A stretch of DNA of 23,171 bases from a virus, in IMG/VR virus record IMGVR_UViG_3300020438_003876, positions 1 through 23,171 of that record, one strand, 5' to 3'. A program made the position numbers and the translations under genes. Each line of letters opens with the position of its first letter. The first letter of the stretch is position 1. The notes under the pieces were generated by a model. It was not told where the DNA came from, did not search any database, and saw only the letters and a program-made list of their open reading frames with translations. Positions 5,988 through 20,123 of the stretch are shown here, in pieces.

Positions 5988-6269
5988 ATGAGTAACATAA
6001 AAGTTTGGATTGATCAAGATCTTTGTACCGGAGATGGCCTCTGTGCTGAAATCTGTCCCAGTATTTTTGAAATGGCTGACGACGGATTGGCCTATGTAAA
6101 AGAAGTAGACTGGCCTACTATATACACAAAAGATGGCAAGACCACCACAGGTGACCCTATCCTTCAGATGGCACAAGGAACAGCAAGTGTTCCAGAAGAG
6201 TTAGTGGAAGATGTCATTGAGTCAGCGGACGAATGTCCCGGTGAATGTATCTTTATTGACATTGAATAA
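5988..6269 (+). CDS. Single-cluster ferredoxin, Asp-containing motif (Pyrococcus-type C-x2-D-x2-C-x3-CP)
   Basis: A 93-residue electron-transfer protein. The N-terminal motif is Cys13-x2-Asp16-x2-Cys19-x3-Cys23-Pro, closely resembling the Asp-ligated ferredoxin of Pyrococcus furiosus. The distal ligand is Cys83-Pro in ADECPGECIFIDIE, with a further Cys87. A [4Fe-4S] cluster with an Asp ligand, or a [3Fe-4S] cluster, is expected by family analogy. An insertion of about 25 residues (YTKDGKTTTGDPILQMAQGT) separates the halves. It follows terminase by nine bases and overlaps the IscA-like gene (TAATG), so the two are coexpressed. No redox partner is recognised nearby; PhyH enzymes or host reductases are possible partners. 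Confidence 0.9.
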   Translation: MSNIKVWIDQDLCTGDGLCAEICPSIFEMADDGLAYVKEVDWPTIYTKDGKTTTGDPILQMAQGTASVPEELVEDVIESADECPGECIFIDIE

Positions 6270-6592
6270 TGATAACTTTAACTGACAAGGCTACTAAAAA
6301 AGTCGCAGAACTGTTAGCCGGAGAAAGCGATGAAACCCTTAGGGCACTGAGAGTTGGGGTTCGGCCCGGTGGGTGTGCAGGACTAAACTACGAAATGTAC
6401 TTTGAATCAGAGATTGCAAAAGATGACGTGGAGGCATTGTTTGGGGACTTAAAGGTTGTAGCGGACCCTACAAGCGCTGAACTTTTAGACGGAGCAAGCC
6501 TAGACTACTATGATGGACTAGGAGAATCAGGGTTCAAAGTGTCAAACAACAAGGCAAAGAAAACCTGTGGGTGTGGACAAAGTTTCTGCTAA
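6269..6592 (+). CDS. A-type Fe-S cluster carrier (HesB/IscA/ErpA family)
   Basis: A 107-residue protein carrying the three family cysteines: Cys36 in RPGGCAGLNYEM and Cys100/Cys102 in the CGCGQSFC tail, plus an extra C-terminal Cys107. Such proteins receive and deliver Fe-S clusters to apoproteins. The start overlaps the ferredoxin stop by one base. Likely clients in this window are the WhiB-like regulator, the Cas4-like nuclease and the ferredoxin (inference). The gene ends against the convergent zinc-finger gene with a 4-bp overlap and no terminator is seen. Confidence 0.92.
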   Translation: MITLTDKATKKVAELLAGESDETLRALRVGVRPGGCAGLNYEMYFESEIAKDDVEALFGDLKVVADPTSAELLDGASLDYYDGLGESGFKVSNNKAKKTCGCGQSFC

Positions 6593-7766: not shown

Positions 7767-8070
7767 GAAGTTTCTTCCTCGCTTGCCTGTCCTCTAATTT
7801 TTGAATGTTCGCTCCAGCAACATCCCTGAGTGAATAACCAAGTTCTGAGGTTAAATTAGCAAGGTACCACAGCACGTCACCGAGTTCCAACATGATGCTT
7901 TGTCGTGCATCGTCGTCCATTTCTCCTCCGTGATCACGAATAATCTTTTTTAACTTCTCTGCAACTTCTCCGGCTTCACCAACTAAGCCAAGCGTTGTGT
8001 ATAAAATGCCTAAGTCTTTTGGGTAAATTGCTGTCTCTTTTGCTGCTGCTTGATATGCATTAACGTCCAT
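7744..8070 (-). CDS. MazG-like nucleotide pyrophosphohydrolase
   Basis: A 108-residue all-helical NTP/dNTP pyrophosphatase. The metal-binding residues are visible: Glu32 and Glu35 in GEAGEVAEKLKK, and Glu62 and Asp65 in ELGDVLWYLANL, the ExxE...ExxD pattern of the family. Phage MazG-like enzymes are proposed to clear modified or excess nucleotides or lower (p)ppGpp; the substrate cannot be read from sequence. The start overlaps the ParB-like stop (TAATG), with GGAG nine bases upstream, so it is translated as part of the same operon. Confidence 0.92.
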   Translation of the reverse strand: MDVNAYQAAAKETAIYPKDLGILYTTLGLVGEAGEVAEKLKKIIRDHGGEMDDDARQSIMLELGDVLWYLANLTSELGYSLRDVAGANIQKLEDRQARKKLHGSGDTR

Positions 8071-8603
8071 TATACTTGCTCCGTGTGTCCTGTCGGTCTT
8101 TCAATGCGAATGTCTTCTCCAGAAGCAGATTCAATTGGGACCCACGCTGGAGAATAACTATGCTGTTTAATTTTTCTCATCTTAACAAGAGAACCATCCG
8201 CCAAAACATCAAACTCGTCAGAAGTCATTTCAAGTTTACGGCGCAAATCATCATACTCATATTTTCCAGAAGCGATGACTTTCTTTAACATACGGGATAA
8301 GAACTTTGCGATAACTACCCCACGAGATCTGTTGAGGTCTATATGAAGTAGCATGGCGTCAATATCATCAATATCAACCACCATAACTGGAACAGTTTTA
8401 ATTTTTTGCTCGTTAGCAACTGTCCATCTATGGTAACCATCAATTATGGTTCCGTTTGGTTGGCAAACTATTGGCGACAAAATACCATAACTAATAATTG
8501 AGTTAGTTAAACGTCGATAATCGGGTGATACCACATAAGAGGAAGACACCCACTTCGCTGGTTTTAGTTTTGACGCTTTTATTACATCTGCATGTGGTTT
8601 CAT
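8070..8603 (-). CDS. ParB-like (ParB/Srx-fold) protein, downstream member of the triad
   Basis: A 177-residue protein with an N-terminal ParB-like domain: an approach helix (RRLTNSIISYG, about 30-40), SPIVCQPNGTIIDGYHR with the DGYHR motif at 55-59, and VPVMVVDIDD (71-80). The second half is helical with no recognised HTH. The ATG at 8603 is preferred over an in-frame TTG at 8639, which would lie inside the putative -35 box and overlap the previous gene; a promoter (8611-8639) ends seven bases before this ATG. ParB-fold proteins of this class accompany PAPS-reductase-like proteins, for example IbrB with IbrA in E. coli. It is too short, and without a parA, for plasmid-type partition. Confidence 0.85.
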   Translation of the reverse strand: MKPHADVIKASKLKPAKWVSSSYVVSPDYRRLTNSIISYGILSPIVCQPNGTIIDGYHRWTVANEQKIKTVPVMVVDIDDIDAMLLHIDLNRSRGVVIAKFLSRMLKKVIASGKYEYDDLRRKLEMTSDEFDVLADGSLVKMRKIKQHSYSPAWVPIESASGEDIRIERPTGHTEQV

Positions 8604-8610
8604 AATTATT

Positions 8611-8639
8611 AGCCTATCTATTATCGTCAAGTGAGTCAA
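8611..8639 (-). promoter_or_regulatory. Leftward promoter TTGACT-17-TAGGCT, leaderless, for the ParB/MazG/DUF932 genes
   Basis: TTGACT at 8634-8639 and TAGGCT at 8611-8616 on the minus strand are 17 bp apart. The -10 ends seven bases before the ATG at 8603. It lies over the 3' end of the PAPS-reductase-like gene. The -10 keeps only the TAnnnT core. Confidence 0.5.
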
Positions 8640-9789
8640 GGCTGTTTGCGTCCATCATTTCCTGTTGCTCTTGTTTCGCAAGCAATGCCACTCGTTTGTT
8701 ATGTGATTTTGTCCTTGGTCCTACAGGGCTAGGCGTTCCATCAAATGTATTTAAAACAATTGTCCTGACAAGGTGTTCAATGGGGTATCCGTAGGGATCT
8801 TTTGCGTGTCGCTTTTTAAACTCGTGACTGAAGACCATTGCTTCTCTGTGGATACCAGGGGTTAAGATGCTGTCATTGATACAATCTTTAACACCGTTCC
8901 ACCCCTGCTCTGAATAGTGGTCAATTAGTGCCTCAACATCAAACTCACCCCATAGTCTTGTCTGTGCTTCAATTTCAGGAAAGCACCTGTAAAGCCCATC
9001 ATAGAATTCAGGCTCAGTTCTAATAACATCAGTCAATCTTCTGGCCGCAACAGAGTGCAAAGGAATACCAACTCTTTGGTTTGCCCCGCTCATTGCTGCA
9101 TAATCATAATAGGCGCAGTATTCACCATTATGTTCTTCTGTTATGAATTTCAAAACGTCGTCTGATGTCCAGTCATAAATAACTTTTGCAAACCTCATCG
9201 GTATGGCTTTAGACAACTGGAAAGGTCTGTTTATGTAGTTTTCGTGGAGTTTTTGAACAACTGTTCTGTACCTAATCATTGACTCGTTTGCCCGCACTCC
9301 AGTAACAAACGCAGTTAGTCCCTTTTTGCCTTGCATGGTGTACTCATCAATACTGTTGGGAATTGATTCCGCTGGGTCAAGCCCAAAATGCTCTGCTCTA
9401 ATTGAGTTCTCAGGAAAAGGTCTATAAAGTCTTCCCTCTGCTTCACGCATCTTGGACCAAAGTAAAACGTATTCTCGTCTACCTAAAACCCATAACTCTT
9501 GTCCTTGGGGTAAGCAGTACCACTCCATGTCAACCCAGTCGTACTCAGAGACTCTCTTAACGTAGTCTTCAATCGCTGGGGAGATCATCTCTTCGTCTCG
9601 AAAGATAACTTTAACAGGACCAAGGTCACGCTCTTCGTGAATCTCTTTCGCTAAATACAAACAAGCAGTAGAGTCTTTACCGCCACTAAACTGTATTGCA
9701 ACAGAATCAAACCTATCGTAAACATGCTTCATTCTTTGACGGGCAGCATCTACGCAGTTTATGTCTAGGAACATCCTACGTCGTGTCAT
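8614..9789 (-). CDS. PAPS-reductase-like PP-loop protein (IbrA / DndC-related family)
   Basis: A 391-residue protein with an N-type ATP pyrophosphatase PP-loop SGGKDS (residues 35-40). TGVRANESMIRYRTV and IYDWTSDDVLKFI follow, as in phosphoadenosine phosphosulfate reductase-domain proteins. A long C-terminal region is not recognised. True PAPS reductases end in an ECG(L/I)H motif, which is absent here, so sulfate reduction is unlikely. Relatives such as DndC act in DNA phosphorothioation, and IbrA works with the ParB-like IbrB. The gene is flanked on both sides by ParB-like genes, one base from the upstream one, with AGGGG five bases before the start. A role in sulfur or adenylate chemistry on DNA, RNA or nucleotides is inferred. 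Confidence 0.87.
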   Translation of the reverse strand: MTRRRMFLDINCVDAARQRMKHVYDRFDSVAIQFSGGKDSTACLYLAKEIHEERDLGPVKVIFRDEEMISPAIEDYVKRVSEYDWVDMEWYCLPQGQELWVLGRREYVLLWSKMREAEGRLYRPFPENSIRAEHFGLDPAESIPNSIDEYTMQGKKGLTAFVTGVRANESMIRYRTVVQKLHENYINRPFQLSKAIPMRFAKVIYDWTSDDVLKFITEEHNGEYCAYYDYAAMSGANQRVGIPLHSVAARRLTDVIRTEPEFYDGLYRCFPEIEAQTRLWGEFDVEALIDHYSEQGWNGVKDCINDSILTPGIHREAMVFSHEFKKRHAKDPYGYPIEHLVRTIVLNTFDGTPSPVGPRTKSHNKRVALLAKQEQQEMMDANSLDSLDDNR

Positions 9790-9790
9790 T

Positions 9791-10570
9791 TTACCCCTCT
9801 GGTGTGTGGTTTGCTATAAAGTCAAGAAGTCTTTCTGCTGTAGTTTCACCAACCCATGTACCATCATCTTTAAGCCACCTCAAAAATGAATACCATTTTG
9901 ATTGTTGCTCGGCAGAATCAAAAACTAAAGTGAACTGGATTGCCGCATTTGTAGACCCTGATGCGTTTGTAGTTGTACTGCCTTGGGCTACAATCGTATT
10001 AGTGGGTACATCTGTTGGCCTTGGAGGTTCAACTGTGTTTTCAGTTGGGCTTGGGGCAGGCCCTGTAATGTCTTCAATAATTATCTCTGGTGCTGTCCAC
10101 CCAGAGTTGTTGTCTCGTGGTTCTCTTACGAAGTCGCTCTCAATGACTTGGTTTTCAATCACCGCTACAGCAAAGTCATCCCACTCAAGAATTTCAAAAA
10201 ACTCAGTATCGCTTCCTGCTACAGCAGATATCGCTTCAAACAGCGCTTCATTATCTGTTGTACCAAGATCAGAAATTCTGTTATCTGCTAAAGCAAATGC
10301 TAAGGCATCATCAGGGTTTAAGTCCACAATAGACACAGCAATTTGTTGCCAGCCTAGATTCTTTGCTGCTTCAAGTTGGTGATTTCCAGCAATTACAAGA
10401 ATTGAACCGTCTGTATCTTCAATGGCAACGATTGGCTTTACTTGACCAAACTTGTTATATGACGCCATGATTGCTTCAACGTTTCCACGTCGAGCATTAT
10501 TTTCTAGTGGCTTTAACATGTCAACGTCTACTGCCAGTTGTTCTATGTTGTTTGCAATGTTGTGTATCAT
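9791..10570 (-). CDS. ParB-like protein with Pro/Thr linker and C-terminal small domain, upstream member of the triad
   Basis: A 259-residue protein. The ParB/Srx-like domain spans about residues 12-100: NNARRGNVEAIMASYNKFG, VIAGNHQLEAAKNLGW (59-74) and ALADNRISD (93-101). The canonical Gly-(His/Glu)-Arg is replaced by GNHQ, so catalysis or CTP binding may be changed. A Pro/Thr/Asn-rich linker (about 165-208) leads to a C-terminal domain, QFTLVFDSAEQQSKWYSFLR, like that seen in other phage ParB-fold proteins paired with methylases or nucleases. It lies between a coiled-coil gene and the PAPS-reductase-like gene with very small gaps. Confidence 0.86.
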   Translation of the reverse strand: MIHNIANNIEQLAVDVDMLKPLENNARRGNVEAIMASYNKFGQVKPIVAIEDTDGSILVIAGNHQLEAAKNLGWQQIAVSIVDLNPDDALAFALADNRISDLGTTDNEALFEAISAVAGSDTEFFEILEWDDFAVAVIENQVIESDFVREPRDNNSGWTAPEIIIEDITGPAPSPTENTVEPPRPTDVPTNTIVAQGSTTTNASGSTNAAIQFTLVFDSAEQQSKWYSFLRWLKDDGTWVGETTAERLLDFIANHTPEG

Positions 10571-10971: not shown

Positions 10972-11323
10972 GAGTCCATTCTAAGCGAACTACTTCGTCA
11001 TACCAATCAATCTTTGCTCCTGAAACGCCTCTTTCAAGCAAGTCGTCTAACCATTCTGTGCCAAGTTCTTTTTCAATCCATCTAGCCCACACTAAAGGAT
11101 TCTTGGTTTGCTTCCAATGGCATGACGCACACAAAGCAACAGCATTACGCTCGTCTGTTCTCGTGGCAGAAATACTGCGAGAAATGATATGCGCACATTG
11201 AATCTGCCCTTCATCACGAGTTTTACCACACCATCGACAAGTAAAATTATCTCTCGTCCTGACTACCAAACTGTGTAATTTTGTGGCCTTGGCTTTTGCT
11301 TGCTTTCCATAATTGGTTGGCAT
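10946..11323 (-). CDS. HNH endonuclease
   Basis: A 125-residue HNH nuclease. Zinc-binding pairs are Cys29-x2-Cys32 (CRWC) and Cys65-x2-Cys68 (CASCH). The HNH triad is probably His45 in CAHIISRS, Asn60 in ERNAVALC and His69. The N-terminus is basic (YGKQAKAKATK). The start overlaps the PhyH stop (TAATG). It is a free-standing phage HNH and could nick DNA during packaging or recombination, or be a homing enzyme. No intron or intein is evident next to it. Confidence 0.9.
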   Translation of the reverse strand: MPTNYGKQAKAKATKLHSLVVRTRDNFTCRWCGKTRDEGQIQCAHIISRSISATRTDERNAVALCASCHWKQTKNPLVWARWIEKELGTEWLDDLLERGVSGAKIDWYDEVVRLEWTLDQMTKRA

Positions 11324-12213
11324 TACAAAGGGATGTTCTGATTCAGTGGGAAATACCAGCCACCTTGTTGGTGCTGTATTGCTGGCGAAGGCATATCAGG
11401 TCTATGATTAACGCCAGAGTAATGCAGAATTGCCGTCTCTCTCCACAAGTCAGGATCATTAGGGATAGCACCACGGTGCATGAGTCGAGCGTGCCAAAGA
11501 AGGACATCTCCTTTCTTGGCTAAGAACTTTTCAACGTTTAATTCGCCTCTGTTTAGAATGTCTTCAAACATGGGCGTTAAGAAGCGCTCTGAGTACTTCG
11601 GCCATAACGGATCACGCCTTTCTGATTCTTCTAGTCGAGAAAGCGTTTTGTCTTGTGTAATAATTGGTAAAACGTGTGACCCACGAACATACTCAAATGG
11701 ACCTGAGTCTTCATGGATGTCATCAAGCGCTACCCAAATAGCCAAGTAGTGATCGTAGTTTGAATCAGGGTTAAGGTAACCATCTTGATGCCAGTTCCTT
11801 TGAGTTGACTTCCACCCAGTTAGGTTTAAGTGCACCCCCATCGGTTCACCAATCAAAGAACGCATAATGTCTTGGAGTGGACCAAATGTTGCAATGTTCA
11901 TCAAACTCGGAACTTGATAGTAAGCACATTCACCGGGGTAACCTAATGGCCTATCATGATTTACCCTGTTGTGTTGAATCCAGTCAACACGGTATGCTTC
12001 AATCAGTGGCTCTGGAATGAAGTTGTTTAGTATTACCACCCCATCTTTACGCCAATCTTTTTGCATTTGTGAAAGTGTGGATTCGTCAACTTCTTGTCTG
12101 TCCAATAAAGGCAACAGACCATCAGAAATACTTCCCGCTAAGGAGTTCATTTCATCAAGCAAGTCAGGGTGCGAATCAATTGCGTCGCCCAAAAAGTTAT
12201 CTGATCTACTCAT
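11323..12213 (-). CDS. Phytanoyl-CoA dioxygenase (PhyH)-like Fe(II)/2-oxoglutarate oxygenase
   Basis: A 296-residue double-stranded beta-helix oxygenase. The iron triad is His142-x-Asp144 (NWHQDGYLNP) and His246 (LMHRGAIPN). Arg258 (WRETAI) is the likely 2-oxoglutarate-binding residue. The DDIHEDSGPFEYVRGSH segment (about 164-180) is typical of the family. The ATG at 12213 has GGAGG six bases upstream, better than an ATG three bases earlier. The substrate is unknown: glycans, lipids, small molecules or DNA bases are possible. It lies between two HNH genes, and a second PhyH-like gene occurs at 18423 on the other strand. Confidence 0.9.
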   Translation of the reverse strand: MSRSDNFLGDAIDSHPDLLDEMNSLAGSISDGLLPLLDRQEVDESTLSQMQKDWRKDGVVILNNFIPEPLIEAYRVDWIQHNRVNHDRPLGYPGECAYYQVPSLMNIATFGPLQDIMRSLIGEPMGVHLNLTGWKSTQRNWHQDGYLNPDSNYDHYLAIWVALDDIHEDSGPFEYVRGSHVLPIITQDKTLSRLEESERRDPLWPKYSERFLTPMFEDILNRGELNVEKFLAKKGDVLLWHARLMHRGAIPNDPDLWRETAILHYSGVNHRPDMPSPAIQHQQGGWYFPLNQNIPL

Positions 12214-12706
12214 CATTATCCTCCATCCAGAAAGGCTTAGTCTTTTTTCCTGTGAACCAACTGTGTCGAACTCTTTCAGCCTCCATATAGTGAATGTCTT
12301 TATCTGCCCAAGACGGTAGATGCAATCCTACAGTTTCGGCATCTTTTGGATTGTCAGTAACACGCCTGTGGCAAGTCCGACACAAAGCAAATAAGTTTTG
12401 TCTTTCTAGTATACTACCACCTTGGGATCTGTTTATGAGTTCATGGATGTCTTGAGTCATGCGTAGTAAGGGGTTCTTGTTATTGTCAAAACCTGCCCAA
12501 ATACCACAACCGGAACAATGTGGCTCTTCTGCTAACAACTCTTCTACAATCTTACGCCGAGTAACATAAATCTCTTTCATCTTTTGAGATCGCTGTTTTA
12601 AACGAGATCGCTTCATCTGGTTATCACCACCATTTAAAGGCGTTCGCTTCAATTGGCTATCACCACGCTTCAGCGGAGTTCTTTTCATAGGCTTGCCACG
12701 CTTCAT
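12206..12706 (-). CDS. HNH endonuclease with basic repeated N-terminus
   Basis: A 166-residue protein. The first 45 residues are a Lys/Arg-rich tail made of three copies of a 12-residue unit (KRTPLKRGDSQL, KRTPLNGGDNQM, KRSRLKQRSQKM), probably for nucleic-acid contact. The HNH part has Cys64-x2-Cys67, DIHELINRS with His88 and Glu89, Asn104, and CRTCHRR with Cys109, Cys112 and His113. The ATG at 12706 forms an ATGA overlap with the glycosyltransferase stop and is preferred over a start at 12745. It overlaps the PhyH gene at its 3' end. Confidence 0.87.
   Translation of the reverse strand: MKRGKPMKRTPLKRGDSQLKRTPLNGGDNQMKRSRLKQRSQKMKEIYVTRRKIVEELLAEEPHCSGCGIWAGFDNNKNPLLRMTQDIHELINRSQGGSILERQNLFALCRTCHRRVTDNPKDAETVGLHLPSWADKDIHYMEAERVRHSWFTGKKTKPFWMEDNDE
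12609..12680. repeat. 36-bp imperfect tandem repeat inside the HNH gene
   Basis: 12609-12644 and 12645-12680 align without gaps. They encode the repeated basic 12-mer of the HNH N-terminus, and a more degraded third unit lies to their left. Confidence 0.7.
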
Positions 12707-13800
12707 CGTTTTACGTTTCTCGCTAGTTGACCAATAGTCTTCCACAGTTTAGGTGCACCGACCTTTAGGTCAAACTTCTTAACTGCACGCCATGCTTTAT
12801 CAGACTGCTCTTGTCTATAGTCTAGGTCTACTAATTTCTTCAAGAGTTTAACATAATCGCTCGGATTCTTAGCCAATTGACCAATGCCATGTTTTTCAAC
12901 TAACTCCTCGTATTGAGGAGAGTAAGATGCCACAAACGGAACCCCACCACACGCATATTCTAAACCTTTAATGTAAGACTTAGCATGATTGAATGGAATA
13001 TCTGTTAGTGGAACTATACCAGCATCAAAGGTAAACCCCTTGTGTAACTCAGTTGGTGCCAAGAATGGTGACCTAGAAACAATGCCCGCAGAAACACCAA
13101 TCTCTTTCTCAAACTGTGGTATGTGGATTGCTGGCATATGGCCAGTGTGATGCCACGTTGCAAACTTACTAATTTCTTCTGAATGCGGGCGCAATATTTC
13201 TAAATCACCACTTCTGTGTGCTGTAGAACCCATCCACCCCACAACCATTTTTTCTGCGTTGGAATGAATTCTTCTGTCCTTATACTTCTCTCTATTAACA
13301 AAGTTCGTGTGTAGTAGCGTATTCTCATTCCACTTAGAGATCTTGTTTACCAAAAAGGGAGTTGAAGCGATGACACCATCAGACTCTTCAATTATGTTTT
13401 GATACCAATTAGTGTTTTCTTGTGGGTTGGAGTTTGGGTTTGACATTTGATATGCATGATTCTTTTCACTAAGTCCCCAATACCAGTCATCAACGTCTTG
13501 TAAAACTATTTGACCTGCTGCTTGAGCGCCCTTCATATCAGGAATTACTTGCATGTGCATGTATCTTTGCATAACGATAACGTCACAGTCAAAGTAATCT
13601 TGCTCGTCCCATGTATGAATACCAAAAGTTCCGGTCATTCGATTGTGCGCTAAGATCCCAACACATGCATCATAGCCCAACTCTCTAAATCTCTGCATGT
13701 ACTGGCCTATGCGAATATGCCCAGAGCCACCCATAACAGGGCGACCCAACAAATCAACAACAGACCTTGACCAGTCGTTTGAAGCAAAACCAACTTTCAT
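12703..13800 (-). CDS. Glycosyltransferase, GT-B fold (group 1 / GT4-like)
   Basis: A 365-residue glycosyltransferase. The N-terminal Rossmann half opens with MKVGFASNDW and contains a glycine-rich acceptor loop GGSGHIRIGQYMQRF (about 24-38). The C-terminal nucleotide-sugar half has VVGWMGSTAHRSGDLEIL and the donor-site helix KSYIKGLEYACGGVPFVAS. The nucleotide sugar and acceptor are unknown. Phage enzymes of this kind modify DNA bases, capsids or host surface glycans. The start lies one base after the stop of the coiled-coil gene and only a weak Shine-Dalgarno is seen. It sits in the same operon as the recombination genes. Confidence 0.85.
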   Translation of the reverse strand: MKVGFASNDWSRSVVDLLGRPVMGGSGHIRIGQYMQRFRELGYDACVGILAHNRMTGTFGIHTWDEQDYFDCDVIVMQRYMHMQVIPDMKGAQAAGQIVLQDVDDWYWGLSEKNHAYQMSNPNSNPQENTNWYQNIIEESDGVIASTPFLVNKISKWNENTLLHTNFVNREKYKDRRIHSNAEKMVVGWMGSTAHRSGDLEILRPHSEEISKFATWHHTGHMPAIHIPQFEKEIGVSAGIVSRSPFLAPTELHKGFTFDAGIVPLTDIPFNHAKSYIKGLEYACGGVPFVASYSPQYEELVEKHGIGQLAKNPSDYVKLLKKLVDLDYRQEQSDKAWRAVKKFDLKVGAPKLWKTIGQLARNVKR

Positions 13801-16967: not shown

Positions 16968-17018
16968 AGGTATTAAACTTAAGGAGAAAACTACAACAAA
17001 AGAAACCGAGAAATCTCG

Positions 17019-17284
17019 ATGACATAAAGGTTTACTGAAGGACCGGAGGGTTACACTCGTTACGCAACTGGTAACAGGAATGACACTACGGGCACGCCTA
17101 CCCAAAGAGTGAAGATTTGAATCGCACGATAAACTGGAACAACATCTTTGACGAGATGCCAGTCCCTGCACGGAGAGCATTAGGACTTGAGGAGTTAGGT
17201 TCGGAACTAGCAAATGCCCACGCAGTTCCGGCACACGGGCAACTAGAGCCATATCTAGGGAGAGTGGGCGCACTGAAAAAATAG
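17019..17284 (+). pseudogene. Possible broken small gene, frameshifted
   Basis: After an ATG at 17019 a stop (TAA) appears at codon 3. The same frame then reads FTEGPEGYTRYATGNR and onward to 17120. The frame one base back continues from about 17117 to a stop at 17284, with LNRTINWNNIFDEMPVPARR and then ALGLEELGSELANAHAV, 55 residues that look convincingly coding. Joined, the two pieces would form a small protein of about 88 residues. A lost start, a nonsense codon and a -1 shift would all be needed, so decay is more likely than recoding. A separate short gene starting at TTG 17117 or ATG 17156 is the alternative. No family is recognised. Confidence 0.3.
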
Positions 17285-17333
17285 GTGCGTTTGGGGTCCA
17301 AGACGTAAATAGATCTTAGTAATACTACGGGTT

Positions 17334-17388
17334 CTACCTAGAGCCATTCGTGAGTCGGCGTCAACTGACCACACGAATGGGTAGGTAG
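17334..17388 (+). promoter_or_regulatory. Large inverted repeat / hairpin before the NodS-like operon
   Basis: The left arm CTACCTAGAGCCATTCGTG (17334-17352) pairs with the right arm at 17372-17388. CCATTCGTG/CACGAATGG is a perfect 9-bp stem, extended by CTACCT/AGGTAG across a small internal loop. The 19-base loop holds a weak inner pairing. No T-run follows, so it is a poor intrinsic terminator. It ends four bases before the -35 box of the next promoter, so an operator or the 3' structure of an upstream RNA are both possible. Confidence 0.6.
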
Positions 17389-17391
17389 TCT

Positions 17392-17420
17392 TTGCCAAAA
17401 ACAAGTCAGATGATTAGAAT
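17392..17420 (+). promoter_or_regulatory. Rightward promoter TTGCCA-17-TAGAAT, leaderless, for the methyltransferase operon
   Basis: TTGCCA (17392-17397) and TAGAAT (17415-17420) are 17 bp apart, followed by six bases and the ATG at 17427. The AGGA inside those six bases is too close to the ATG to act as a ribosome site. Confidence 0.7.
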
Positions 17421-17426
17421 AGGACT

Positions 17427-17921
17427 ATGCAGACACGAGAAGAACTAGAGAGTTGGTATCTAACGGAGGACCCTTGGGACTACCGAACCAACCCTGACGA
17501 CATCTACCGTAAAAACTTTTATCTCGCTGTTCTAGAGGACGTAGGACCGTTCTTTAACAGAGCACTCGACATTGGAGCAGGGGAAGGCTGGATAACGAAA
17601 GATCTTCCCGCCTACGAAAAGCATGCCCTTGAACTGGCTGATACAGCAGCGTCAAGACTCCCAGAAGGAGTAGAGAGGGTTCAAACCGCAAACCAAAAGT
17701 ATGATCTAATCCTAGCCACTGGGGTGTTGTACGAACAGTACGACCATACCGGAATAAGTGAGATGATTCACAACGCTGCATCAAATACGCATGGAACAAT
17801 GGTCATGGTTGCGGGCATAAAAGACTGGCTAAAGCCTTACGGATTTGGTAAACGTATACGTCATTTTGAAATACTGTACAGAGAGTACACGCATGTAATT
17901 AATGTTTGGGAGTACGCATGA
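17427..17921 (+). CDS. NodS-like SAM-dependent methyltransferase
   Basis: A 164-residue class I methyltransferase. The SAM-binding motif is ALDIGAGEGW (residues 46-55), with an acidic position after beta-2 (LELAD, 68-72) and a motif IV-like YDLILATGVLYEQYD (92-106). The opening WYLTEDPWDYRTNPDD resembles NodS-type enzymes, which N-methylate chito-oligosaccharides in rhizobia, but the substrate here is unknown. It is the first gene of a four-gene cassette and overlaps the next by ATGA. The presence of a NodB-like gene next to it strengthens the sugar-modification reading. Confidence 0.82.
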   Translation: MQTREELESWYLTEDPWDYRTNPDDIYRKNFYLAVLEDVGPFFNRALDIGAGEGWITKDLPAYEKHALELADTAASRLPEGVERVQTANQKYDLILATGVLYEQYDHTGISEMIHNAASNTHGTMVMVAGIKDWLKPYGFGKRIRHFEILYREYTHVINVWEYA

Positions 17922-18439
17922 GGTTAGCGCACAACATAGGAACCGAAGAACATTCAAACTATCACACCCGTGAACAAATCTTGGCCTGTGATGAGCCTAT
18001 CGGCTTTGATGGGGTGTACTGGAGCGTGTATGAGAACCAAGACGTTCTAGGAGGTAAATCAGGAATCATGTTTGTTATGGGAAACTGCATGGGTAAGGAT
18101 AATGCATTTGACCTAGACCATGTTCCTAAACTAGAGCCGTACTGTTCTCTTGCTCAAGTAAAGCAAATGTGTTTCACTTATGCCTTTGAAATTGGTTGGC
18201 ATACATGGTCCCATAGAGACCTAACTACTCTTTCAGACAAAGAGATTATCCAAGAGATCACTGCTCCCTTTCCGACCAAACTATTTCGTTACCCCTATGG
18301 TAAATATAACGACAGGGTAGTTGAGTTAGTGAAGAAAGCGGGCTATGAAAAAGCCTACTCTACAACTTTAGGTGTGATTGATGAAATGTCCCCTGACGCC
18401 AAGTTCAAGATTTACAGCGATTATGTCCCTTTCGTCTAG
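17918..18439 (+). CDS. NodB-like polysaccharide deacetylase-family protein
   Basis: A 173-residue protein of carbohydrate esterase family 4 type. The metal-binding HxxxH is WHTWSHRDL (His95, His99) and the RxPYG-type motif is FRYPYGKYN (Arg124 onward). Motif 1, usually TFDDG, is reduced to GFDGVYWS with one Asp (Asp31), so the metal-binding second Asp is missing or supplied elsewhere. Such enzymes remove N-acetyl groups from GlcNAc polymers or related sugars. The ATG at 17918 overlaps the methyltransferase stop (ATGA) and has GGGAG six bases upstream. No signal peptide is present, so it acts in the cytoplasm on a precursor rather than on the wall. Confidence 0.85.
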   Translation: MRLAHNIGTEEHSNYHTREQILACDEPIGFDGVYWSVYENQDVLGGKSGIMFVMGNCMGKDNAFDLDHVPKLEPYCSLAQVKQMCFTYAFEIGWHTWSHRDLTTLSDKEIIQEITAPFPTKLFRYPYGKYNDRVVELVKKAGYEKAYSTTLGVIDEMSPDAKFKIYSDYVPFV

Positions 18440-19154
18440 CAAACAAGTCTACCTTGAAAAAGGGGTTGCGGTCATACCAGCCGTATTCACAGAAGGCGAA
18501 TGCGATGAAATGAAAATATCTGCATACTCAGTCACAGACGAAGCAATAACCAAAGCAAGGTACCCACACGTCCCAAGCGAAAAAGCCTACAACAAAAAGT
18601 CTTTAATATTCTTTCCAGCATTAGCAAACTTTAACTTAAACAATGTTCGGACAGACCCAAGAATGGTACACATTGTCAAAACCTTCCTAGGTGACAATGT
18701 TCGACAAATAAATAATCAAGTTTACTTTCGTGAACCAGAAGACATTGACACATTTGCTTGGCACCGAGACACAATCTTTAGGGAAAGTTCTCAGTTCAAA
18801 ACCAACGTTGAGAATGATTACTTACAAACAATTATAGCAATAGATGACATAACAGAAGACAATGGCGCTGTTGAGTTCATAGAAGGCTCACATACATGGG
18901 AAGATTTTGAAACTCCAAACAATTTACGCCAGTTCAAAAGAGAAGGGCTTTCTGGCACTAAGTATGTTGCCCTAAAAGGGGACGTTATGGTATGGTCAGT
19001 AAAAATTGTACACGGAAGTGAAGTAAACGGGTCAGACCGATCACGCATGACATACATGAATGGGTTTTGTAAATCTGACAGTGTGCTAGACTACCCTGAC
19101 TACCTAGTCAACGGAAAAGTGGTTCATGAGATAAACCCAGAAAGGATTCCATAA
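18423..19154 (+). CDS. Second PhyH-like Fe(II)/2-oxoglutarate oxygenase
   Basis: A 243-residue oxygenase with the iron triad His114-x-Asp116 (FAWHRDTIF) and His197 (IVHGSEVNGS). Arg206 or Arg208 (DRSRMTYMNG) is the 2-oxoglutarate partner. DDITEDNGAVEFIEGSH (141-157) is the family signature. The ATG at 18423 is preferred to one at 18378, which would overlap the deacetylase more deeply; it overlaps that gene by 17 bp. It differs strongly from the PhyH-like protein at 11323, so the two are not a recent duplication. Hydroxylation of a sugar, lipid or amino-acid precursor is plausible. Confidence 0.88.
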   Translation: MSLSSSKQVYLEKGVAVIPAVFTEGECDEMKISAYSVTDEAITKARYPHVPSEKAYNKKSLIFFPALANFNLNNVRTDPRMVHIVKTFLGDNVRQINNQVYFREPEDIDTFAWHRDTIFRESSQFKTNVENDYLQTIIAIDDITEDNGAVEFIEGSHTWEDFETPNNLRQFKREGLSGTKYVALKGDVMVWSVKIVHGSEVNGSDRSRMTYMNGFCKSDSVLDYPDYLVNGKVVHEINPERIP

Positions 19155-19777
19155 TGCTAACAGTCGTAGTGGCGTCTTACTATTATGGGCACCTAGCAGC
19201 GCACTGTATTGAAAGTCTGCTGTCTCAAACAGTTCAGCCAGAAAAGATACTTTTTGTTGACGACGGTGTTGGGGATTGTGCACACCTTCCAAAAGTTTAT
19301 CCAGAAATTGAATACACCTTGCGTAAAGAAAACATGGGAACAGTTGACAACTTTCAAGACATGTTAATGAGAGTAGACACAGAGTACACTATGTTTCTTG
19401 GAGCGGATAACTGGTTAAGATCAGATGCAGTTGAAACCCTACTAAAACAAGACACCGACATCGTAACATACCATGTGATGGTTACAGGTGAACATAAAAT
19501 GGGACATAGAGATGCCAAGGAAGAAAACATCCTTAATGGGGATATTTACTGGCAGTGGGATGGGCACCACGGGTCAATGATGTACAGAACTTCCATCGGA
19601 CAAGAAGCGGGATATAAGCGACACGCTGACTTTGAAGAGGGTGACGCTGCCTGCGAAGACTGGGCATTGTGGGACAAGATGTTAGAATTAGGAGCGACTG
19701 TTTCCCATGTTGAAGAACCGCTTCTCTACTACAGGCGACATCGAGAAAACTTTATTGATTGCAAAATCAATCAGTAG
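19154..19777 (+). CDS. Glycosyltransferase family 2 protein
   Basis: A 207-residue GT-A enzyme. The start is TVVVASYYYGHLAAHCIESL and the nucleotide-binding acidic pair is in ILFVDDG (32-38). The DxD-like site is LGADNW (82-87) and the catalytic-base region is CEDWALWDKM (Glu168-Asp169). It is shorter than most GT2 enzymes, lacks membrane segments and probably adds a single sugar. It overlaps the PhyH stop (TAATG) with AAAGGA upstream. Together with the three upstream genes it forms a cassette for making or altering a sugar-containing product. The gene ends convergently, overlapping the next gene by 11 bp. Confidence 0.9.
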   Translation: MLTVVVASYYYGHLAAHCIESLLSQTVQPEKILFVDDGVGDCAHLPKVYPEIEYTLRKENMGTVDNFQDMLMRVDTEYTMFLGADNWLRSDAVETLLKQDTDIVTYHVMVTGEHKMGHRDAKEENILNGDIYWQWDGHHGSMMYRTSIGQEAGYKRHADFEEGDAACEDWALWDKMLELGATVSHVEEPLLYYRRHRENFIDCKINQ

Positions 19778-20123
19778 TAATTCTTTGTACTTGTTGAGCG
19801 TCTAGGAAAACCGTAGCAGTACCGCCGACAAGTTCAACCTGATCCATCGGAACCTTAAAATGAGATGCCAAAGTTGCACGAGTTTTTAGTTCGCTCATAA
19901 TGTCCACCTCTTCTAAGAGTCCGTCTTCTTCAAACACCTGCATAAGAGTTTTGGACTTAGGAATCAAACATTCTTTACAGCAGAGTCTGTCTTCACCAAT
20001 CTTTGGCTTACGTTTTGTCTCAAGAGAGTGACCGCACTCAAGAACAATATGCCAACTTGTGTTCCCATAATCCCCAATACGAACAGCCTCTGTAACTAAG
20101 CGCTTTGGTCCACGTTTGCTCAT
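19767..20123 (-). CDS. Cys-rich small protein, possible zinc ribbon, unknown function
   Basis: A 118-residue protein with a basic start (MSKRGPKRL), then LECGHSLETKRK and DRLCCKECLIP, giving Cys-Gly-His and Cys-Cys-x2-Cys that could bind zinc. The C-terminal half (LASHFKVPMDQVELVGGTAT) is not recognised. It is transcribed away from recA from an overlapping promoter and predicted to be leaderless. A regulatory role near recA is conceivable but unproven. Confidence 0.75.
   Translation of the reverse strand: MSKRGPKRLVTEAVRIGDYGNTSWHIVLECGHSLETKRKPKIGEDRLCCKECLIPKSKTLMQVFEEDGLLEEVDIMSELKTRATLASHFKVPMDQVELVGGTATVFLDAQQVQRITTD

Follow-up and report, generated by a model that had tools for sequence, protein, structure and literature searches.

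An exchangeable phage cassette of Nod-factor-like enzymes that probably tailors an exposed glycan

The window, which is the whole stretch of DNA analyzed here, is a 23,171-base IMG/VR virus fragment and features at positions 17427 to 19777 of the plus strand a cassette of four genes. The cassette is probably an exchangeable glycan-tailoring unit, in which a family 2 glycosyltransferase (GT2) would transfer a sugar that is deacetylated, N-methylated, and perhaps hydroxylated and that caps an exposed glycan. The recurring linked order of the genes, together with cellular relatives in O-antigen and flagellum clusters, points to an unusual methylated amino sugar as the most likely product—built on an exposed surface, either of the virus particle or of the infected cell. 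The cassette and its promoter consist of the following features.

17392 to 17420, plus strand: predicted leaderless promoter TTGCCA-17-TAGAAT (position kept in relatives, no Shine-Dalgarno)
17427 to 17921, plus strand: NodS-like SAM methyltransferase (MT), 164 aa (AF2, Foldseek, profile, SAM motif)
17918 to 18439, plus strand: NodB-fold (CE4) deacetylase, 173 aa, no signal peptide, motif 1 reading FDG (PF01522, AF2, Foldseek)
18423 to 19154, plus strand: PhyH-type Fe(II)/2-oxoglutarate (2OG) oxygenase, 243 aa (PF05721, invariant residues, PDB match)
19154 to 19777, plus strand: soluble GT-A family 2 glycosyltransferase (GT2), 207 aa (PF00535, phrog_9549, invariant residues)

The genes overlap by 4 nt (MT and NodB, ATGA), 17 nt (NodB and PhyH), and 1 nt (PhyH and GT2). 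The initial annotation had described four overlapping plus-strand genes of these families; its coordinates and overlaps are correct, and the families agree with three Pfam matches and a NodS-like fold of the MT. The promoter ends 6 nt ahead of the cassette ATG. Its pattern alone is within chance, with nine sites found for 7.2 expected; the leaderless promoter proposed earlier is borne out by its conservation, as six relatives have a −10 element 6 to 7 nt ahead of the ATG, in most cases together with a −35 element, and lack a Shine-Dalgarno sequence. The majority of other phage groups have the cassette inside an operon, downstream of same-strand genes, and a Shine-Dalgarno sequence precedes it in L068 and L002. 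This arrangement suggests that leaderless expression is a property of the window's phage group only.

The enzymes were assessed by protein alignments of 33 to 40 homologues each. The MT scores below every Pfam and NCBIfam cut-off, and its profile matches NodS best in the PDB (3ofj, E 1.3e-5); the AlphaFold model (pLDDT 95.4) likewise has NodS as first Foldseek hit (3ofk, TM 0.80). Its alignment keeps the SAM motif DIGxGEG and the signature DPW / TGxLY / YREY. The deacetylase matches PF01522 with 48.4 bits against a cut-off of 23.1 (E 1e-12), and its AF2 model (pLDDT 95.2) has the CE4 structures BA0330, BC0361, PplD, IcaB, and PgaB as nearest Foldseek neighbors. The catalytic Asp of motif 1 (D31) and both His residues of the HxxxH motif 2 (H95 and H99) are invariant in 39 sequences. 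At the second Asp of TFDD, a metal ligand in CE4 enzymes, all phage copies (FDG) and all of the cellular fusions described below (TFDG) have Gly instead, so that metal binding and activity are putative. The labels NodS-like and NodB-like hold for the fold of both proteins but not for membership in the equivalog families, since the MT reaches 17.5 bits with NodS NF041650 (cut-off 300) and the deacetylase 19 bits with NodB TIGR04243 (cut-off 240). The fold search with the deacetylase model also gave a weak match (probability 0.99, E 0.03) to 8qpg, the turret protein of Haloferax tailed virus 1, a hint that virion parts may contain CE4-like domains.

PhyH matches PF05721 above the curated cut-off (E 2e-25), has EctD as nearest PDB structure, and features an invariant HxD...H iron triad (H114-D116-H197) and an invariant 2OG-binding R208. 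GT2 matches PF00535 with 41.7 bits (cut-off 23.3, E 1.5e-10) as well as the glycosyltransferase family phrog_9549; the GT region of TagF is its PDB match, and its acidic positions D36 and D37 (DD), D85 (AD), and E168 and D169 (ED) are invariant. Because the catalytic residues and motifs are kept in the alignments, all four proteins look like active enzymes. No stretch resembling a signal peptide or a membrane segment is present in them or their homologues, the highest Kyte-Doolittle mean over 19 residues being 1.55, in line with the earlier description of a NodB-like deacetylase that lacks a signal peptide and of enzymes working in the cytoplasm.

Searching IMG/VR with each cassette gene singly and grouping the matches at roughly 90% similarity yielded 50 viral lineages, which are similarity clusters of fragmentary records rather than a phylogeny. 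MT and deacetylase occur together in 44 of these 50, and all four genes share order and strand in about 30. Of 28 NodB loci, 27 have MT and GT2 no more than 5 kb away, and the remaining one is at a contig end; GT2 accompanies PhyH in 53 of 55 loci, and NodB accompanies GT2 in 43 of 49. In addition, the sequence distances of the cassette genes co-vary (Mantel r 0.62–0.92). The four-gene order thus recurs in other phages, where independent occurrence of the genes had been named as the contrary outcome. This strict linkage, the co-varying distances, and the kept catalytic residues support the four genes as a true functional unit. The flanks outside the cassette differ between lineages, so the unit moves between backbones; in other phages, it is placed among epimerases, glycosyltransferases, and methyltransferases. 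PhyH is missing from L006, L020, L103, L116, L117, L121, and L122, which suggests that hydroxylation is optional, and GT2 is inverted in the group of L018, L046, L050, and L051.

A DNA search of known phage isolates gave no cassette match, and literature searches for the gene combination found no description. Protein searches of 50,697 phage records identified one with the MT–deacetylase pair and PhyH (MW202801.1), the uncultivated podovirus ctQWt234, which carries PhyH, MT, and NodB with another glycosyltransferase. The genes of ctQWt234 lie within 2 kb after the major capsid gene and ahead of the next structural genes. Terminase, portal, head-tail, or tail-fibre genes are likewise near the cassette in L120, L124, L125, L128, and L072; no structural genes adjoin the cassette of the window. 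As for defence systems, PADLOC gave one weak, meaningless match to the cassette (E 0.005), and this function was rejected.

Within the window's phage group, the cassette occupies a slot that was compared as the interval from an upstream RNA to a 118-aa gene or recA. The slot has the following borders.

16998 to 17385, plus strand: conserved structured non-coding RNA, marking the insertion slot and not a cassette member (alignment of relatives)
19767 to 20123, minus strand: 118-aa protein, function unknown, at the right-hand border of the variable slot (comparison of relatives)

The slot is empty in relatives such as L150, L170, L174, L195, and L208, holds the full cassette in others, and holds the cassette without PhyH in L176 and L216. 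LicD, a cytidylyltransferase (CTP_transf), and the hydrophobic protein DUF3307 form an alternative cargo in L155, L161, L181, L192, and L205, and a non-homologous set of GT2, Methyltransf_23, and 2OG-FeII_Oxy_3 fills the slot in L162. That close relatives have this slot empty or filled by either set marks the cassette as exchangeable and putatively glycan-tailoring cargo; the swap of modules with similar chemistry at one site is the strongest evidence for a variable glycan product. Between the slot and the 118-aa gene, some relatives carry a 240-aa protein with no Pfam match (L161, 6193 to 6915, minus strand), the family of which is also found in L043, L075, and L108 and near the cassette in other backbones.

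The RNA of about 390 nt features a mean column identity of 79% in seven relatives, and 25 of its 89 predicted pairs show two-sided changes. Rfam gave no match to it even at E 1, nor did the phages in GenBank, and it seems to be a phage RNA that has not been described. It occurs in about 25 additional phage contigs, most of which lack the cassette, and lies near whiB or recA in those contigs that extend over its flanks. In other backbones, the cassette starts 11 to 16 nt beyond a tRNA gene (L075, 6901 to 6985; L076, 6915 to 6990; L108, 6924 to 6999) or about 380 nt beyond a tmRNA (L055, 6135 to 6565). Such adjacency in unrelated backbones, like that of the RNA in the window's group, makes RNA-gene-associated insertion possible.

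A genome scan returned likely phage contigs and seven bacterial loci in which a TFDG-type NodB is fused to GT2. The fusion couples sugar transfer and deacetylation. An orthologous MT directly precedes it in six of the seven loci; the pair occurs in Xylophilus, Flavobacterium, Chitinophagales, and Neomarinimicrobiota, and the fusion also in Aureimonas (L133), where no MT was read. The cellular MTs share 27 to 31% identity and the same motifs with the phage MT, as judged by four aligned loci and L138. They resemble the phage system in the MT signature (DPWGY, GVLYxQY, YREYxH), the TFDG-type NodB, and the gene order, but differ in the fusion of NodB and GT2, the lack of PhyH, and a clade of their own: in the deacetylase tree, a fully supported branch separates the phage copies from the cellular ones. 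In a wider census of four groups, no more than 1% of the genomes of any group had the fusion, which is too few for statistics. A wzt-type gene, for an ABC ATPase of O-antigen export, precedes the MT in five of the seven loci (Wzt_C confirmed in L134, L137, and L139; L135 and L136 assigned by sequence similarity), and flgK, flgL, fliW, and csrA precede it in one. Both settings are those of surface glycans built in the cytoplasm. By analogy, the product in the wzt setting could be a terminal epitope for the carbohydrate-binding domain of Wzt, a principle of recognition described in PMC11231755, and in the flagellar setting it could be a flagellin glycan.

Besides these cellular loci, the cassette compares with three known systems. 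Like rhizobial NodC-NodB-NodS, it features by fold a cytoplasmic trio of GT2, CE4 deacetylase, and N-methyltransferase with no signal peptide; in rhizobia, NodB and then NodS act successively on one terminal GlcNAc (PMC5080398). Unlike the Nod system, the phage GT2 is small and soluble rather than a membrane chitin synthase, the phage proteins are far below the NodB and NodS equivalog cut-offs, a NodA acyltransferase and a signalling context are absent, and PhyH is added. With ABC-transporter O-antigen chain terminators, such as WbdD with the carbohydrate-binding domain of Wzt, it would share modification of the non-reducing end, methylation included, and wzt adjoins the cellular relatives, but the phage copies come without transporter and polymerase. 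With hypervariable glycosyltransferase islands of phages, such as metaviromic islands and the host-recognition cluster of pelagimyophages, the common feature is variable glycan enzymes located close to regions of host recognition or accessory genes, but here the four genes form a fixed unit across unrelated backbones.

In the proposed mechanism, GT2 would transfer an N-acylated amino sugar, whose donor is probably UDP-GlcNAc or UDP-GalNAc of the host, onto a cytoplasmic acceptor glycan. The NodB-type enzyme would then take the acetyl group off the transferred sugar and the NodS-like enzyme would methylate the freed amine. This order is proposed because in Nod factor synthesis NodB must deacetylate the sugar before NodS can N-methylate it (PMC5080398), and the same analogy suggests N- rather than O-methylation. 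PhyH may hydroxylate the sugar, a substituent, or the acceptor in an optional step, which is the least secure of the pathway. The product would cap an exposed glycan and change its antigenic or receptor identity. The earlier proposal of cytoplasmic assembly of a methylated, deacetylated, and hydroxylated sugar is retained as to the sugar product, which is by far the best reading, and the cytoplasmic enzymes, while hydroxylation becomes optional given the absence of PhyH in several lineages. The solubility of all four proteins and the resemblance of PhyH to small-molecule hydroxylases such as EctD would also suit a module for scavenging or auxiliary metabolism, with small molecules or released sugars rather than a surface as its target; the near-obligate GT2 partner, the cellular NodB–GT2 fusion, and the replacement of the cassette by non-homologous glycan modules in the same slot make such a module very unlikely. 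DNA, another acceptor considered earlier, is unlikely. Glycosyltransferases and 2OG oxygenases are known in DNA hypermodification pathways, and the enzymes could in principle add a modified sugar to the bases of phage DNA as protection from restriction. Among 40 cassette-bearing records, which may be fragments but include contigs of 84 to 211 kb, an enzyme for hydroxymethylated bases was found once as TET/JBP and once as a thymidylate-synthase type, and the cellular homologues lie in surface-glycan and flagellar loci, so that base decoration is most improbable.

Two genes of the opposite operon had also been proposed to take part.

11323 to 12216, minus strand: second PhyH-type oxygenase (PhyH2), backbone gene (Pfam, persistence in relatives)
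12703 to 13800, minus strand: GT-B glycosyltransferase (phrog_7162), backbone gene (PHROG match, persistence in relatives)

Both are present in relatives whatever fills the slot, including where it is empty, and were rejected as cassette members, yet a PhyH2 homologue adjoins GT2 in L018, L022, and L023, and some members of the group of L018, with inverted GT2, show this adjacency. They may supply a constant glycan core. The window also encodes WhiB, RecA, and portal and head genes, and its terminase matches Gordonia and methanogen phages at 41 to 46%. Host and lifestyle being inferred for these phages, WhiB indicates that the window phage is probably an actinophage. A PAPS-reductase/DndC-like protein (DndC 1e-6) is encoded between two ParB-like proteins at 8070 to 10570 on the minus strand. 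At 5988 to 6592 on the plus strand, between terminase and metabolic genes, lie a ferredoxin-like gene and an A-type Fe-S carrier gene (IscA/HesB-like by eye), the second of which matches a PHROG of unknown function.

As to the acceptor, a virion protein glycan has about an even chance, and a host surface glycan altered so as to keep other phages out a somewhat less than even one. The placement among virion genes in ctQWt234, L120, L124, L125, L128, and L072 slightly favors the virion, and the O-antigen setting of the cellular relatives and the LicD alternative favor the envelope; wzt neighbors in five of seven cellular relatives and the LicD/DUF3307 cargo are compatible with an acceptor in the host envelope and with one on the virion alike. 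Two fuller schemes build on these acceptors. In the one put forward tentatively, widely different phages would share a serotype-like slot, in which the Nod-factor-like pair puts an N-methylated and mostly hydroxylated amino sugar on the virion, and swaps would represent exchangeable glycan serotypes. In the other, which is rather doubtful, the same chemistry would be directed specifically at the surface glycan of the host, which would be altered in the course of infection (or lysogeny) as a barrier against superinfecting phages. This accords with the cellular homologues beside wzt, with LicD, cytidylyltransferase, and DUF3307 as alternative cargo, and with the published reading of phage glycosyltransferases in pelagimyophages and Nanopelagicales phages (PMC7029224, PMC10202952), but Actinobacteria, the probable hosts of the window phage, have no O-antigen, the cassette enzymes come without membrane anchors and with no flippase seen, and the capsid gene or other virion genes are near the cassette in several backbones.

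Phage glycosyltransferases are usually noted singly, with product and acceptor not assigned; here, they belong to a conserved multienzyme unit. Its cellular counterparts in surface-glycan loci and the naturally empty or swapped slots make the product and acceptor of a phage glycan directly testable, and suggest that N-methylated amino sugars of a Nod-factor-like kind are present on some virions or infected cells.
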